This document shows positions 1 through 8,997 of a stretch of DNA of 64,000 bases, in pieces. Source of the stretch: Saitoella complicata NRRL Y-17804 (lineage: Eukaryota; Ascomycota; Saitoellomycetes; Saitoellales; Saitoellaceae); the NCBI RefSeq assembly GCF_001661265.1, contig NW_017567011.1, forward strand, positions 124,001 through 188,000. Direction: 5' to 3'. The notes under the pieces were generated by a model, which saw nothing but the letters and a program-made list of their open reading frames with translations, was not told the origin of the DNA and made no database searches. Position numbers and translations under genes: made by a program. How positions within the stretch are numbered: the stretch's first letter is position 1; each line of letters opens with the position of its first letter.

Positions 1-1287
1 AGTTTGAAGAACAACTTGGGAAATATTGCGGAGGTTGCGTTGACTGCTATGGGTGATCTTCTTGTTGTCACAGCTGAGTTACCGTCGGAGGATCTGGAGG
101 CGGAGAACGAGATGAGCGCGGATGCTGCGACGTCGGGCGGAAGTTTCGAGAGCCAGCTGTATTTGTTCGAGAGTGCGGGGTTGTTGATCTCGGATCAATC
201 TGTGCCTGCTGAGCAGCAGTTGGCCGTGGCACGGAAGTTGCTGGCGCCGTTATTTGCTGATATTCAGCAGCGACTCGCTGGTAGTAAAACGGATCAGTTG
301 AATGTGTTGCAGGTTCATCACGACATCATGGCCATCGGAACCTTCTGTAAGGGATTCCCGGAGACGATGAAGGGTGAGCCGGCGACGGCTGAGTGGGCGA
401 CGGCGTTTCTGGAGGCAACAGAAGTTATTCTCGTTGCGCTTCAGACGTTCAATACGGTGGAGATTGTCCGTGATGCTTCGAGGTTTGCGTTTGCGAGGTT
501 AGTTAGTATTCTGGGGTCGCGGTTGCTTCCGGAGACTCCGAGACTTATCAATGGGTTACTTACGGAGGCTAAGACGTCGGAGTTGGTTGATTTCCTTCCC
601 TTCTTGGGTCAGTTGATTCACAAGTTTCAGCCGCATATCTTCGATATGCTCAACAACTTGTTGATGCCTTTGTTGGGCCGGATCTTCTCTACGCTCAACA
701 ACCCTGCGGAGGGAACGGATGCTTTGCTCAAGAGGATTGAGATGCGCAAGGCGTACTTGAACTTTATTCTTGCGATCTTGAACAACCGTCTTGGCTCTGT
801 CTTTGTTAGCGAGACGAACCAGGGTAACTTCGAGTCCATCATTCAAAGTATTGTTCACTTTGGGTCTGATGTGTCTGATGCTCCGACGGCGAAGCTTGCG
901 TTTGGTGTTTTGACGACTATGGTTGCTACATGGGGTGGTCCTAACAAGACTACTGCTATTACTAACCAGCTCGTCGGTCAAGATCTTCCTGGGTTCCAGA
1001 GGATCATGTACGAAATCATGACTCCAGTATGCTTCGAGGTTCCTTCGAAACCTGAGTTCAACCCCCGAGATGCTCAAGCGCAACTCCTCCTCTTCGAAAT
1101 CGCTTCCCTGCAGAAAGCTATGTTCGAGCAAAAAGGCGACACCTTCATCGTCGCCCTCCAGAACTACCTCGTCTCCATCAACTTCCCCCAGCCCACCGCG
1201 GCAGAATATATTCAGTCCCTTCGAACAATGGACCTCCGCGACTTCAGAAAGTTCTTTTATAACCTAATTATCGCTAGCCGTGGCTAG
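1..1287 (+). CDS. LOS1: Exportin-T (tRNA exportin), 3' part only
   Basis: The window opens inside this gene; frame 1 is open from the first base to a TAG at 1285-1287, giving 428 residues of the C-terminal part. Exportin-T is a Ran-GTP dependent karyopherin that carries mature tRNA out of the nucleus. The sequence is all helical, HEAT-like, with stretches typical of the family, such as LPETPRLINGLLTEAKTSEL, DFLPFLGQLIHKF and a terminal FRKFFYNLIIASRG. The full family length is about 1000-1100 residues, so roughly 60 percent lies outside the window. No intron is seen. It converges on the methyltransferase-GatA fusion gene 509 bp away. Confidence 0.85.
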   Translation, partial: SLKNNLGNIAEVALTAMGDLLVVTAELPSEDLEAENEMSADAATSGGSFESQLYLFESAGLLISDQSVPAEQQLAVARKLLAPLFADIQQRLAGSKTDQLNVLQVHHDIMAIGTFCKGFPETMKGEPATAEWATAFLEATEVILVALQTFNTVEIVRDASRFAFARLVSILGSRLLPETPRLINGLLTEAKTSELVDFLPFLGQLIHKFQPHIFDMLNNLLMPLLGRIFSTLNNPAEGTDALLKRIEMRKAYLNFILAILNNRLGSVFVSETNQGNFESIIQSIVHFGSDVSDAPTAKLAFGVLTTMVATWGGPNKTTAITNQLVGQDLPGFQRIMYEIMTPVCFEVPSKPEFNPRDAQAQLLLFEIASLQKAMFEQKGDTFIVALQNYLVSINFPQPTAAEYIQSLRTMDLRDFRKFFYNLIIASRG

Positions 1288-1796: not shown

Positions 1797-4499
1797 TCAT
1801 GAAACCATATCTTCTAGGATTTTGGCCATTTCCAAGACTGTGTGGTCCTCTCCGAACTGACCCATAACCTGCAGACCAATTGGCATACCGCTTTCATCCT
1901 TGCCATACGGGACACTGCAAGCCGGAAGGCCAGCTAAACTTGCCGGAACGGTCAAAACATCGTTCACATAAGCATCCAGTCTCTTCTGCTTCTTAACCTC
2001 TGACAGTAATGGCGCAGTGGTCATAGATGACGGTGTGATCAACACATCAACACCATCCTCCACTCCCTGCTCCGTAGCACGCGACGGGTTCTTCGTGGCA
2101 AACACTTTATCAAAGTCATCTTGAACCATCCTCCTGATTTTCTGTGCCTGAATGAAGAAGTTATCGATGGCCTCAGAGCTCAGCGTGAAAGTACCGAGCA
2201 ACACACGTCTCTTAACCTCTTCGCCCCAACCTTCCTCTTTGGTGTTGGCGTACAGCGTGCCGTTAGCAGAATCCTGATCAGCACGACGACCGTATCGAAT
2301 ACCATCGAATTTAGCCAAGTTTGAAGACGCTTCAGCGGGTGCAAGGATATAGTATGCGCTTATAGCCTGTTGTACTGCTGGGATGGACACCTCCTTGATT
2401 GTATGACCCTGACTGCGCAAGGCGTCAATCGCGCTTGCCCATGCTTTACGGACTGGTTCCGAGAGTTCCTCAGGGTTGAACTCGGCAGGAACTCCAACTG
2501 TCCACGTTTTCTTCTTTTCCGATCTAATAGGTTTTCTCGCCGTAGGTGGCAGACTCGTCGGGTCTTTGGGATCATGCACATTCAATACATCAAAGACCTT
2601 CCGAGCATCCTCCACTTTTTTAGTCATGATCCCAACCGTATCCAGGGAGTTGGCGTATGGGATAACTCCCCATCGCGAGAGTAAACCATAAGTTGGCTTG
2701 AAGCCAACGATGCCGGTGTATGCTGCGGGAAGCCGTACAGATCCACCAGTGTCAGTCCCCAGAGCAGCATAGCACATACCATCCCGTACAGCGACCGCAG
2801 AACCGCCAGAACTGCCACCAGCACTGTACTCCACTCCGTCAACGTGGTTCACCGTAGGTCCGCGAGCAGAGTATATGGAGTGTGAACCCATTCCGAACTC
2901 ATCCATGTTGGTCTTTGCATGGATCACAGCTCCTGACTCCTCCAGCAGGGACACGACTGTCGCCGGATATGGGCTTGTGTGACCTTTGAGGATGTTGGAG
3001 GCACATGTGGTTGGTAATTCAGAGTGTGATGTGCAGATGTTATCCTTGATGGCGATAGTCTTTCCGTGGAGAGGCGTGTTCGCTGGCGCATTTTCTGCTA
3101 AAGACTGGATGGATTCGCGTGGAAGATAGGAGGTGAATGCATTTGTGCGTTTGTTCCAAGCTGCGACGTCTTTGGGTGCTAATAAGGAGTCGCGCTCGGT
3201 CGTTTCAGCCTCCTCTTCGAGCTTCGAATGCTGCACTGACTTCTCAGTAGCTGCTTCCACAGCCTCCGAAACAACCTCACCTCCCTTGTTCTCCACATCA
3301 GTCTCTTCCTCCTGCACCGCTTGGTTCATCGTCCACTTCACCTTCCTGAACACCGCCACGAACCCTCCACCGACACTCCGCCCAACAGCACCCACAGCCT
3401 TCGGCTTACAAACCCACTCCATCCTCTTTTCACCCTGCTCCTTCGATACATTCACACTTCGTACATCCCAAGGCCTCAACCCATTCGTCTGAAACTCCGT
3501 GATGGAGAGTGGTACAAGGGGAATATAGGCTTCTCTCCTACTATTTTGAACGTGGTCGATGCAGGCCATGATCTGGGTTATGGAGGGGCACCATACGAGA
3601 AGGGAGTGGTCTGGGAGGAGGCACTTGGCGACAGAGGCGAAGTGGGCGTGCGGGTCGGGGAGGTCGAGGATGGCGGCAGAGAGGAAAGGTTTTGGCTCTG
3701 TAGTTGAAGCGGGTATAGATTCTGGTTTGGTTTCCGATGCTGATTCGGATGAGAACTCAGTAGATGCTGCCTTCGAGGCGCGGAGTGCGAGTTGTTCCTC
3801 ACACCATGCTGATGGATTGGTGGGTGCGTAGAATTCGACATCCTTGCTGTACATTCCCCTTCGGAAACCGGCCACGACGCCTTCTGCGTGCTTCGAGTGC
3901 CTAGTGTTGATATCGATCGTATGGACTTTCGACGTTGGATTATCCGTTGCGTTGGCAGCATGGATCGCTCGTGCGAGGTAGAGCGTCAAGGCACCATGTC
4001 CCGTACCCGCTTCCATGACCTCCATTGTCTCCCCAGGATTCGGATGTAAGTCGAGTAATGCGACGATATTCGCGGCATCGATGGGGTAAATGGGTGTAAC
4101 CAGTCGCTCTGAAAGTAGGACATAGTCATCGAGTGTTGGGTGGTGTATAGAATATGGAGCTTGGTTATGAGTCATGACGGTAGTCCGGACAGGTTGCCCG
4201 ATCATGTCTTCGTGTTCGATAAGGCCATCTTTCACTTGAAGACTTTTGCCCTCTTGTAAAGGACCGACAAGTCTGGTTTGTTGAGAGCGAACTTTTGATT
4301 TGGAGGTAGGTCTCCTCGAACGGAGAAGAATAGTGTCGCCGGCGTAGACATGAGTGAAATCGAAGTTTGGTTTCCCAGTTCCGGTCGTTATTGAGTACGC
4401 CCGTCGAAAGGAGGCCCGTAAAAGCCCGTTCATGGTTGAGCGGCGTCTGTTGTTCGGAAAATTATGACCCCTGTAACGTTGAAGTTTTTGGGACGTCAA
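1797..4499 (-). CDS. Fusion: TrmI/Trm61-like tRNA methyltransferase + mitochondrial GatA amidase
   Basis: One uninterrupted 900-residue frame carries two enzymes. Residues about 50-390 are an SAM-dependent methyltransferase of the TrmI/Trm61 (tRNA m1A58) type, with the N-terminal strand region (GDTILLRSRR), motif I MEAGTGHGALTLYLA near 163 and the DLPDP motif near 280; an S/E/K-rich insertion lies near 240-270. Residues about 440-900 are an amidase-signature protein close to GatA of mitochondrial Glu-tRNA(Gln) amidotransferase, with Lys near 485 (GKTIAIKDN), the GGSSGGS cis-Ser motif near 561-567 and the nucleophile Ser near 587 (DTGGSVRLPA). An acidic linker joins them. Met23 starts a basic, Ser-rich mitochondrial-type presequence, so translation may begin at 4433. 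No stop or likely intron separates the halves. GatA makes Gln-tRNA(Gln) in mitochondria; m1A58 stabilises the T-arm. Confidence 0.85.
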   Translation of the reverse strand: MTSQKLQRYRGHNFPNNRRRSTMNGLLRASFRRAYSITTGTGKPNFDFTHVYAGDTILLRSRRPTSKSKVRSQQTRLVGPLQEGKSLQVKDGLIEHEDMIGQPVRTTVMTHNQAPYSIHHPTLDDYVLLSERLVTPIYPIDAANIVALLDLHPNPGETMEVMEAGTGHGALTLYLARAIHAANATDNPTSKVHTIDINTRHSKHAEGVVAGFRRGMYSKDVEFYAPTNPSAWCEEQLALRASKAASTEFSSESASETKPESIPASTTEPKPFLSAAILDLPDPHAHFASVAKCLLPDHSLLVWCPSITQIMACIDHVQNSRREAYIPLVPLSITEFQTNGLRPWDVRSVNVSKEQGEKRMEWVCKPKAVGAVGRSVGGGFVAVFRKVKWTMNQAVQEEETDVENKGGEVVSEAVEAATEKSVQHSKLEEEAETTERDSLLAPKDVAAWNKRTNAFTSYLPRESIQSLAENAPANTPLHGKTIAIKDNICTSHSELPTTCASNILKGHTSPYPATVVSLLEESGAVIHAKTNMDEFGMGSHSIYSARGPTVNHVDGVEYSAGGSSGGSAVAVRDGMCYAALGTDTGGSVRLPAAYTGIVGFKPTYGLLSRWGVIPYANSLDTVGIMTKKVEDARKVFDVLNVHDPKDPTSLPPTARKPIRSEKKKTWTVGVPAEFNPEELSEPVRKAWASAIDALRSQGHTIKEVSIPAVQQAISAYYILAPAEASSNLAKFDGIRYGRRADQDSANGTLYANTKEEGWGEEVKRRVLLGTFTLSSEAIDNFFIQAQKIRRMVQDDFDKVFATKNPSRATEQGVEDGVDVLITPSSMTTAPLLSEVKKQKRLDAYVNDVLTVPASLAGLPACSVPYGKDESGMPIGLQVMGQFGEDHTVLEMAKILEDMVS

Positions 4500-4619: not shown

Positions 4620-5302
4620 ATGGCTGAACAAGTGCAGACAGAGTTGGGCGAACACATGGTCGAAGGTAACGGTCAGAGTGCTCCTCGGCAGGAACATCAA
4701 TCTAGGGATACACAGTTTATTCCATGGTCAACCCAAAGTAAACAGGCGGCTGCAGAGATTGCTGAGAAGACAGCGTATCTGTCGCGTACAGAGACATTCA
4801 GTGCTGCTCATCGACTCCACTCGGCTCACTTAAATGACGAGGAGAATGTTGCATTGTATGGCAAATGCAACAACATCAATGGTCATGGACACAATTATCA
4901 AGGTGGGATTTTTGGGCATAAGCTATAAAGGACGTGAGCTAAACAGTTGTAGTTACTGTTACTGTGAAAGGAAAGGTCAGCTACGGAACAGGCATGATCA
5001 TGAGCATGACGGCCCTGAAGAAGGTTATGATGGAAAACGTCATCGATTACCTCGACCACAAGCACCTGGTATGTCCCTTTATCCCCTCCCTGGATCATGG
5101 CTAAAGTATGCTGCAGGATAAGGACATCTCTTACTTCTACGAAAACAAATTGCAGACGACGGCTGAGAACCTAGCTATCTTTGTCTGGGAGGTGATGAAG
5201 GAGGTGTTCACGCAGCATGGGTATCTTGGTTCGCGGACGCAGCTATGGGAGGTTAAGGTCCGTGAAACGGATCACAATGAGGCTATCTACAGAGGCGAAT
5301 GA
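4620..5302 (+). CDS. 6-pyruvoyl-tetrahydropterin synthase (PTPS)
   Basis: Three exons, 4620-4902, 4953-5068 and 5117-5302, encode 194 residues. The first intron has a GTGGGA donor, the second GTATGT. PTPS converts 7,8-dihydroneopterin triphosphate to 6-pyruvoyl-tetrahydropterin in biopterin synthesis. The three zinc His (SAAHRLHS and GHGHNY), the catalytic Cys in [12 protein letters not shown] and the late Asp/His/Glu segment ([12 protein letters not shown]) are all present, so the active site looks complete. About 55 residues precede the usual family start, rich in Q and E, with no clear targeting signal. QueD-type enzymes are related, but the CNN...GHGHNY spacing fits PTPS. It is divergent from the fusion gene, with 120 bp between the start codons. 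Confidence 0.85.
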
Positions 5303-5896: not shown

Positions 5897-6981
5897 ATGG
5901 CCGGTGCCGTCGCGGAGAACATTGCTGTTGCCAAGGCTGCTGCCCAGCAAGCCAACCCTGTCGCTCCTTCCGGTGTCGACTTGTACTCTCGTTTCGCTCT
6001 TGCCGGTGCTTTGTGCTGTGCCATCACCCACGGTGCCTTGACTCCGTATGTCGTTCAAACCTCTCAATCAAGCATCAATCGCTAATAATCAGACCTACAG
6101 CGTCGATGTCGTCAAGACCCGTATTCAGCTCGACCCCGTCACCTACAACCGCGGTTTGATTGGTGGTTTCCGTCAGGTCATCGCTGCCGAGGGTGCTGGC
6201 GCCCTCTTGACCGGTTTCGGTCCTACCGCTGCTGGTTACTTCTTGCAGGGTGCTTTCAAGTTCGGAGGTTACGAGTTCTGGAAGAAGACCTTCATCGAGC
6301 AGGTTGGTGTTGATAACGCTGTCAACAACCGCACTGCCATCTACTTGGCTTCCTCTGCTTTGGCCGAGTTCTTCGCCGATGTTGCCCTCTGCCCTCTCGA
6401 GGCCACCCGTATCCGTTTGGTCTCCCAGCCTACCTTCGCTAACGGTCTCGTTGGTGGTTTCTCCCGTATCGTCAAGGAGGAGGGTTTCGGCGCTCTCTAC
6501 GGTGGTTTCGTTCCTCTCTTGTTCAAGCAGGTCCCCTACACCATGGCTAAGTTTGTCGTCTTCGAGCGTGCCAACGAGGCCATCTACACTGCTCTCGGCT
6601 TGAACAAGTCTGAGGTTTCCGGCTCCAAGGCTACCGGTATCAACCTTACTTCCGGTTTGATTGCTGGTGCCGCCGCTGCTGTCGTCTCCCAGCCCGCCGA
6701 CACCCTTCTTTCCAAGATCAACAAGACTCCGTATGTTTCCCTTCATAAAACTCCTGTACGAGTTGAAGCTAACTTTTCGATGCAGCCGTCTTCCTGGAGA
6801 GGGTGTCGTTGGTGCTCTTGCCCGTCTCGCTCGCGAGCTCGGTCTCAAGGGTTCCTTCTCTGGTCTCGGTCCCCGTATTGTCATGGTCGGTACCCTTACC
6901 GCCGGTCAGTTCGCTATCTACGCCGACATCAAGAAGGTTCTCGGTGCCACTGGTGGTGTCGAGATCGCCCCTGCCAAATAA
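5897..6981 (+). CDS. MIR1: Mitochondrial phosphate carrier
   Basis: Exons 5897-6045, 6101-6730 and 6786-6981 encode 324 residues. This inner-membrane carrier imports phosphate with protons for ATP synthesis. The three carrier repeats are visible, each with its Px[DE]xx[KR]-type signature: [10 protein letters not shown] near 50, [11 protein letters not shown] near 155 and [10 protein letters not shown] near 250. The short N-terminus before [14 protein letters not shown] and the [16 protein letters not shown] segment fit the Mir1/PiC branch rather than other carriers. Both introns have GTATGT donors and the first sits in the PVDVV motif codon. Codon use is strongly biased to C-ending codons and GGT/GCT, as expected of a highly expressed gene. 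Confidence 0.93.
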
Positions 6982-7625
6982 GTGTAGAATCTTTGCTAGA
7001 AGAGAGAGGTTCTATAGAGGAAAAAATACGATATCATTGGCCGGAAATGTTTGTGCTTCGTAAACATTCACTCGCGTCTGATTCTTTCCCATCTTACACG
7101 TAAATGTTTATAGACGCATCAGGCAACATTCCGACGTTGAGGAAGGATCGTTCCCACGCTTCATGATGCCATGTTAGGTCCCCTGCCCAGCGCATGTTGA
7201 AAGGCGAGACCCTTCGCAAACCGTTCAAGTGCCTTGCTTGTCTTCCTTTCAATACAGTCTTGCGCGTTAGAGCTTTTGTATGAGTCTGGCGTTCGATCTG
7301 GATATGCCTTGTAATTGTCATTCCTAGTACGACATGTTTTGAAGGTATGAAGTGCGACGATTACACCAGCGCAAAGAAGGGATAAATTGGCTCCGTGAAG
7401 CAACCGTGTGAATATGTCCAAGTTACCACTCCCCGAGACCTCCCGATAGAGGATCGTGTGTTAACATATTGATAGGCGCCCAACCTGATCAAGCTCACAA
7501 AACGGGAACAAGATAACCCGAACGACAGAAGACATGGACAAGGACAGATGTTTGTTCACACCGAATCGACACCCTGCTTTATACACATGAGGGTTGCGTT
7601 CATTGGGTAAAAAGCAAAAAACGAA
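6982..7625. other. Intergenic region between phosphate carrier and tRNA-Tyr
   Basis: Holds the carrier 3' UTR and, near 7609-7621, the T-runs that end the minus-strand tRNA. A minus-strand frame at 7094-7312 starts with ATG and has 73 codons, but shows no recognisable domain, so it is not called as a gene. Confidence 0.5.
7609..7621 (-). terminator. Pol III terminator of tRNA-Tyr
   Basis: Runs of six and five T on the minus strand, starting 5 nt after the end of the tRNA, match the simple oligo-T terminator of RNA polymerase III. Confidence 0.8.
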
Positions 7626-8014: not shown

Positions 8015-8997
8015 TCATGCCTTCAACAAATTACCCAAGATCCACGGTCTTGCGTCCCAAAACTCATCCCTAATAACATCGCAATGATAAACACGCACCA
8101 CAGTCTTAACCTGCCTCTCCTCCTTCTTTGCCTGCTTCTTCGCTTCCTTCTTCAACTGTCTATTTGACTTTGGTCTCTCTGGCTCACCCATTGTCGCACC
8201 ATGCTCTTGCAGTAATGACGGCGCATCACCATTCTCTTCATCCTTGACAGGCTCCCTTACCATGACGGTACCTTTTTTGTACATCTCGGGTTCATTATTG
8301 TAGTTGATCCCAAAACGGGAGAAGAGGATTTCGTGTTTATCTGCTGCGCGGCTTCCCATAAGTTCACGTTCTGCATCTCGTTCCGTCATGCCGCCTTTGA
8401 GGATCAGGGCCCAGTTTGTGGTGTTGTAGAGATTGTTGATGTGGCAATCTGCTTGTCGCCATGAGAAATAGTCTCGTAGGTTCTGGTCCGAGGGGTAGAG
8501 CACGGCGCGACCATCGAATGAAGGCGGGTACAGTGGTTTGGGTGTTGGAAAGTGATCTGACCAGTAGTAAAGGTAGTATGATGTGAATAGTGATGCAAAT
8601 GTTGTGATCAGTTTTGACTCGCGGCGGTCGTATAGCGAGCACAACTTCGATAACAGGAAACTGTATACCAAGTCAGTCAAGTTCAACAGTGCAAACCTAG
8701 AAGGTTGTATACCTGTACTCATCACTATCACCATATGCCATAACGACATCACTCAACTCACTCATCACAGCTTTTGCAGCCGCATTCATCAGGTTCAATG
8801 CACGTGCATCATTTGGCTTCTCAAATTCGTGCACCTTTGAGAATCTATGGAAGCCATGACCGTCTATTCTGATGATGACCCAGGTGTTTGGGAGTAAGGG
8901 ATCAGGCCGCTCAAAGTCCTTCACGTATTCGTATTTCGAGTTCGCCTGCCGCACGGTTAGTCAAACCCCATACGCCGCTCCTGCCACCGCTTACCAT
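8015..8997 (-). CDS. THG1: tRNA(His) guanylyltransferase
   Basis: Three exons on the minus strand, 8995-8997, 8713-8945 and 8015-8660, encode 293 residues. Thg1 adds the G(-1) needed on tRNA-His, using 3'-5' polymerisation. The protein starts MANSKYEYVK as in the family, has the metal-binding IRIDGHGFHRFS and GDSDEYSF motifs, and the DCHINNLYNTTNWAL region. The first coding exon is only the ATG: GTAAGC follows it directly and the acceptor GGCAG precedes GCGAACTCG. The family N-terminus is restored exactly by this splice. The second intron (8661-8712) restores DSDEYSFLLSK. The C-terminus carries a lysine-rich stretch and ends in RDEFWDARPWIL. Confidence 0.93.

Follow-up and report, generated by a model that had tools for sequence, protein, structure and literature searches.

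A Saitoella open reading frame that joins a TrmI/TRMT61B-type tRNA methyltransferase to a mitochondrial-type GatA

Does Saitoella complicata make as one polypeptide two enzymes that are normally encoded by separate genes, a tRNA m1A58-type methyltransferase and the amidotransferase subunit GatA? The question arose from a first-pass annotation of a 64,000-nt stretch of the genome of this member of the Taphrinomycotina (C20:124001-188000, hereafter the window), in which both enzymes had been placed in one frame of 900 codons, for a protein of about 98 kDa. We analysed the window together with the rest of the assembly, which consists of 14.12 Mb in 34 contigs (the published S. complicata assembly is of 14.1 Mb, PMC4447899). 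The fusion of the two known enzymes in Saitoella is real. On the minus strand a single frame runs from an ATG at 4433 to a stop codon at 1799-1797 without need for an intron, hence one frame with no stop between the domains was confirmed, at 878 codons plus stop from the ATG and 95.4 kDa. Upstream from this ATG the frame stays open for 26 more codons, up to a stop at 4514-4512, with no further ATG, which accounts for the earlier boundary at 4499. The features of the open reading frame (ORF) are the following:

1797..4433, minus strand: whole fusion ORF, 878 amino acids (aa) plus stop; an open frame, with an 890-aa orthologue in Saitoella coloradoensis that is 90% identical over 100% of the length
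4395..4433, minus strand: mitochondrial-type presequence, residues 1-13, with the site RAY/S at 11-14, from residue counts and the site pattern
3336..4349, minus strand: TrmI/TRMT61B-type tRNA m1A58 methyltransferase domain, residues 29-366, from homology, fold and Tyr116/Asp257
3162..3335, minus strand: acidic linker, residues 367-424, with 16 acidic (D/E) and 5 basic (K/R) residues, from composition; a low-confidence helix in the structure model, up to residue 415
1800..3161, minus strand: GatA domain, residues 425-878, with Lys463/Ser541/Ser565, from the TIGR00132 score and motifs

The second half was identified by the GatA equivalog model TIGR00132, which scored 495.4 bits over residues 422-875 (cut-off 481.1), and by its match to the yeast mitochondrial GatA 4n0h (6.9e-109). 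The motifs IAIKDN, GGSSGGS and DTGGS are kept at residues 460, 539 and 561, where they align with 4n0h and 3h0l; they hold Lys463, Ser541 and Ser565, which we take to be the positions of the Lys-cisSer-Ser amidase triad. Genome-wide, TIGR00132 gave nine matches, of which the fusion alone was above the cut-off, the other eight scoring 22.7-202.4 bits (94.3-193.5 bits for seven of them in another run); this search went exon by exon, where a GatA gene with many introns could score low, and it included one scattered amidase on C24 at 22.7 bits. GatB (335.3 bits) and a third subunit of GatF/Gta3 type (GatF 58.3-59.5 bits, Gta3 71.1 bits) are encoded elsewhere in the genome. The Saitoella GatA half is like GatA/HER2 of the fungal mitochondrial GatFAB (4n0h) in its whole amidase domain, in its triad positions and in having GatB and GatF/Gta3 in the same genome. 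It differs from the 12 stand-alone fungal GatA proteins that we inspected in what precedes the NAF position, which is 20-32 residues in those proteins and a linker plus a methyltransferase in Saitoella. As a separate observation, the third subunit matched three families over the same stretch (G000:C11:247921-248343), Gta3 at 71.1 bits, GatF at 59.5 and GatC at 29.5, and it may connect the GatC family with the GatF family.

For the first half, the evidence came from fold, catalytic positions and relatives. A structure model of the N-terminal 415 residues alone, made with 56 hand-picked relatives, has the TrmI fold including its N-terminal domain. Tyr116 and Asp257 align with Tyr78 and Asp170 of Thermus thermophilus TrmI, which are replaced by alanine in 5c0o (Y78A) and 5c1i (D170A); the stretch around Asp257 is weakly aligned, and both residues are the same in all 57 sequences of our alignment. 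The Pfam scores lie close to their cut-offs: GCD14 gave 22.4 bits with the whole protein and 26.9 with the methyltransferase piece (cut-off 26), and TR61B_FKBP-like gave 23.8 and 22.3 bits, respectively (cut-off 27). With TrmI/TRMT61B proteins (PDB 2pwy and 1i9g; among stand-alone fungal proteins, e.g. P0122) this half shares the fold, the S-adenosylmethionine (SAM) motif and the equivalents of Tyr78 and Asp170. The first-pass annotation is thus supported as to the identity of both domains and their intact catalytic motifs. We also tried to align the complete fusion jointly with the two stand-alone sets and dropped this, the methyltransferases having fallen on GatA (12-17% identity to the query).

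At the sensitivity of our search the 14.12-Mb genome holds no second copy of this methyltransferase, the only match being the fusion itself, while the cytosolic Trm61 is encoded elsewhere. All 119 stand-alone fungal relatives are nearer to the fusion domain than to the cytosolic Trm61; since they were gathered with this same domain, this speaks of distinctness and not of phylogeny. One further GCD14 match was seen below the cut-off of 26, at G000:C14:52041-52391 (24.9 bits). As no second copy of either half was found, each half is either functional in the fusion or dispensable. The methyltransferase half would act on mitochondrial RNA, most likely at A58 of tRNAs, and the fusion directs attention to a mitochondrial-type m1A58 methyltransferase family in fungi, on which we found no paper among the titles and abstract openings returned for TRMT61B and fungi.

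The S. coloradoensis orthologue (P0001) has the same architecture end to end, with identities of 307/338 (90.8%) in the methyltransferase, 425/454 (93.6%) in GatA and 43/58 (74%) in the linker; the two domains are about equally well conserved, and the linker diverges faster than either. The only gap in the linker is of 10 whole residues, therefore the reading frame continues unbroken from one domain into the other, a conservation that would not be expected of a spacer between two genes. Over the linker the fusion frame is the sole open one of the three on the coding strand; the opposite strand also has one open. The acidic character is common to both species (in S. coloradoensis 19 acidic among 71 residues, the limits being drawn slightly wider, and again 5 basic ones). 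The codon score of the linker was 13.6 bits, a value reached by 93 of 3329 open non-ORF pieces, and the domain pieces averaged -1.2 and 3.1, a measure that separates coding sequence poorly. No promoter or terminator was seen in the linker by a bacterial-type scan, which is uninformative for a fungus.

The limits of the domains were taken from the stand-alone proteins. The motif GGGF is present in 117 of the 119 methyltransferase relatives, and 98 of the 119 end at most 25 residues after it (median 14, longest tail 311), at the point where the Saitoella linker begins. Judged by these ends, and by where stand-alone GatA starts relative to NAF, the fusion contains each domain in full, and about 58 residues separate the two. 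The longest tail, of 311 residues, belongs to P0157 (Peziza echinospora) and is acidic and repeat-like (70 acidic, 17 basic residues).

How far does the fusion extend beyond Saitoella? The first-pass annotation had proposed an architecture search for Trm61/TrmI plus Amidase; our sequence searches gave one other fusion, P0001 of S. coloradoensis. With the whole fusion as query, we scored the 7999 candidates richest in common words and obtained 6122 hits, of which the best 120 were examined; a distant fusion could escape such a search. Among these 120, P0001 alone carries the methyltransferase part, which is absent from the other 37 GatA-bearing proteins longer than 560 aa, and a blastp of residues 1-415 against the same 120 gave P0001 plus three chance hits (E at least 4.2). 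With residues 20-370 as query, in a search over proteins of about 483-1,536 aa, 16 of the 6,337 candidates matched, and only P0001 had an amidase among its precomputed Pfam domains. Both searches rely on common 5-residue words. Taphrinomycotina genera other than Saitoella were not among the named matches, many entries being without a name. The fusion is known, then, from both named Saitoella species and from nowhere else within reach of these searches. We did not find it in the open-licence literature searched, and the S. complicata genome paper (PMC4447899) gives no gene-level data on this locus. The protein database also holds P0121, a predicted 311-aa piece of the fusion frame.

Other composite proteins were met along the way. 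Three of the 16 matches to residues 20-370, P0242, P0247 and P0250 (Leotiomycetes: Scytalidium, Diplocarpon and Erysiphe), are annotated with a calcineurin-like metallophosphoesterase behind the same methyltransferase, which could be another fusion or merged models of neighbouring genes. Three long GatA proteins, P0059 (Hortaea, 1027 aa), P0115 (Teratosphaeriaceae, 1495 aa) and P0038 (Coniosporium, 662 aa), have other N-terminal portions, without a match to the methyltransferase; these are perhaps merged gene models.

Where the protein would go is suggested by its N-terminus. By simple counts, the first 24 residues include four basic ones and none that is acidic, in S. complicata as in S. coloradoensis, and neither protein has an R-x-Y/F/L-S/A site other than RAYS at 11-14, a site of R-3 type. 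We thus have one ORF, one N-terminal presequence (from these counts) and two whole enzymes, the composition of a composite fungal mitochondrial precursor, and the fusion is a case of this known class and does not found a class of its own.

The explanation that best fits the observations (a single frame with both domains in it, no further copies at search sensitivity, conserved frame and catalytic residues) is that a nuclear Saitoella gene very probably encodes a bifunctional mitochondrial precursor, made of presequence, m1A58 methyltransferase, acidic linker and GatA. Its origin, import, activity and assembly we infer as follows. The methyltransferase gene would have lost its stop codon and read through a short spacer into an adjacent GatA gene, before the split of S. 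complicata and S. coloradoensis. The single N-terminal presequence would direct import of the whole protein; the GatA half would join GatB and the GatF/Gta3-type subunit, converting Glu-tRNA(Gln) to Gln-tRNA(Gln), and the other half would methylate A58, or another mitochondrial RNA adenosine.

Two points weigh against parts of this explanation. For yeast GatFAB the extract available of PMC4027206 names presequences for GatB and GatF only; with no presequence listed there for yeast GatA, a GatA started inside the Saitoella frame could conceivably be imported too. The human TRMT61B targets listed in the available part of PMC8348895 are six mitochondrial tRNAs, Gln not among them, plus 16S rRNA, by which a coupling specific to tRNA(Gln) is somewhat disfavoured.

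A branch of the bifunctional-precursor explanation, compatible with it, is that cleavage of the precursor within the mitochondrion releases the two enzymes from each other, with only expression and import tied; we hold this possible, with the odds against it. Fungal composite precursors that are cut are known from the extracts of PMC12375894 and PMC8847149, namely Rsm22-Cox11 of Schizosaccharomyces pombe (also Taphrinomycotina) and yeast Arg5,6; as in Saitoella, one nuclear gene gives two mitochondrial proteins, and Rsm22 belongs to a methyltransferase family. Cleavage would also agree with the faster evolution of the linker and with Arg429, which both species have where the GatA core starts. 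However, no arginine of residues 367-424 is common to both species for the mitochondrial processing peptidase (MPP), Arg414 of S. complicata being Thr in the other, and no R-3 site occurs beyond residue 11. The stretches shown that start at 367-403 have a net charge of -4 to -7 in S. complicata, and the basic stretch 343-366 (net +6) is the conserved end of the methyltransferase; these negatives come from motif and charge counts, not from a dedicated predictor of internal signals. Hence Saitoella differs from those two cases, as far as the extracts describe them, in its domain pair, in having no shared processing Arg and in the lack of a presequence-like stretch seen in the linker.

We consider it improbable that one frame gives two separately started products, by an internal promoter giving GatA from Met369 (510 aa) and a methyltransferase transcript that ends early. 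Met369 stands at the methyltransferase end in both species, and a stand-alone GatA from there may be importable given the yeast case above. But the methyltransferase has no stop codon of its own, which an early-ending transcript would therefore lack, the protein from Met369 starts strongly acidic (7 acidic residues and 1 basic in the first 24), and the frame is conserved across the linker. The earlier claim of one import signal is supported by sequence, through the single RAYS site in each species and the acidic linker, but with yeast GatA lacking a listed presequence an imported stand-alone GatA from Met369 is conceivable.

An assembly or sequencing error masking a stop, or an intron hidden in the linker, is the least credible reading. 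Splice-like GT dinucleotides do occur at 3464, 3457, 3417, 3409, 3395 and 3280, and the sequence CTGAT at 3301 resembles a branch site. But the whole architecture recurs in a second species, an intron from 3464-3395 past the branch-like site would delete Gly355-Phe358, which is the same in all 57 sequences aligned, and an in-frame intron would leave the fusion anyway.

For the bifunctional precursor, any functional coupling of the halves beyond joint expression and import is speculative. T-arm methylation may be tied to transamidation, as the first-pass annotation had it, and a fixed 1:1 ratio would presuppose that transcription does not also start internally and that the protein is not cut later. 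A scaffold, in which a TrmI-like tetramer bears four GatA and up to four GatFAB and methylation gates or follows transamidation of the same mitochondrial tRNA(Gln), seems unlikely to us. The fusion is a natural experiment that links a tRNA modification enzyme to a tRNA-dependent amidotransferase. Should the protein stay uncut, it could be used to find out whether mitochondria connect m1A58 with the synthesis of Gln-tRNA(Gln), and whether GatFAB complexes can be borne by a tetramer of TrmI type. At minimum, it adds to a short list a composite precursor common to two species.

COX1 had no match in the 14.12-Mb assembly, hence the mitochondrial genome is probably missing from it. The neighbours of the fusion are these:

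49-1287, plus strand: exportin-T (519.9 bits)
4620-4925, plus strand: exon of a 6-pyruvoyl tetrahydropterin synthase (27.7 bits)
6048-7103, plus strand: mitochondrial carrier (122.9 bits)
8015-8749, minus strand: Thg1 tRNAHis guanylyltransferase (Thg1C, 158.7 bits)

Three of the five genes within 9 kb, the fusion included, concern tRNA, which may be chance.
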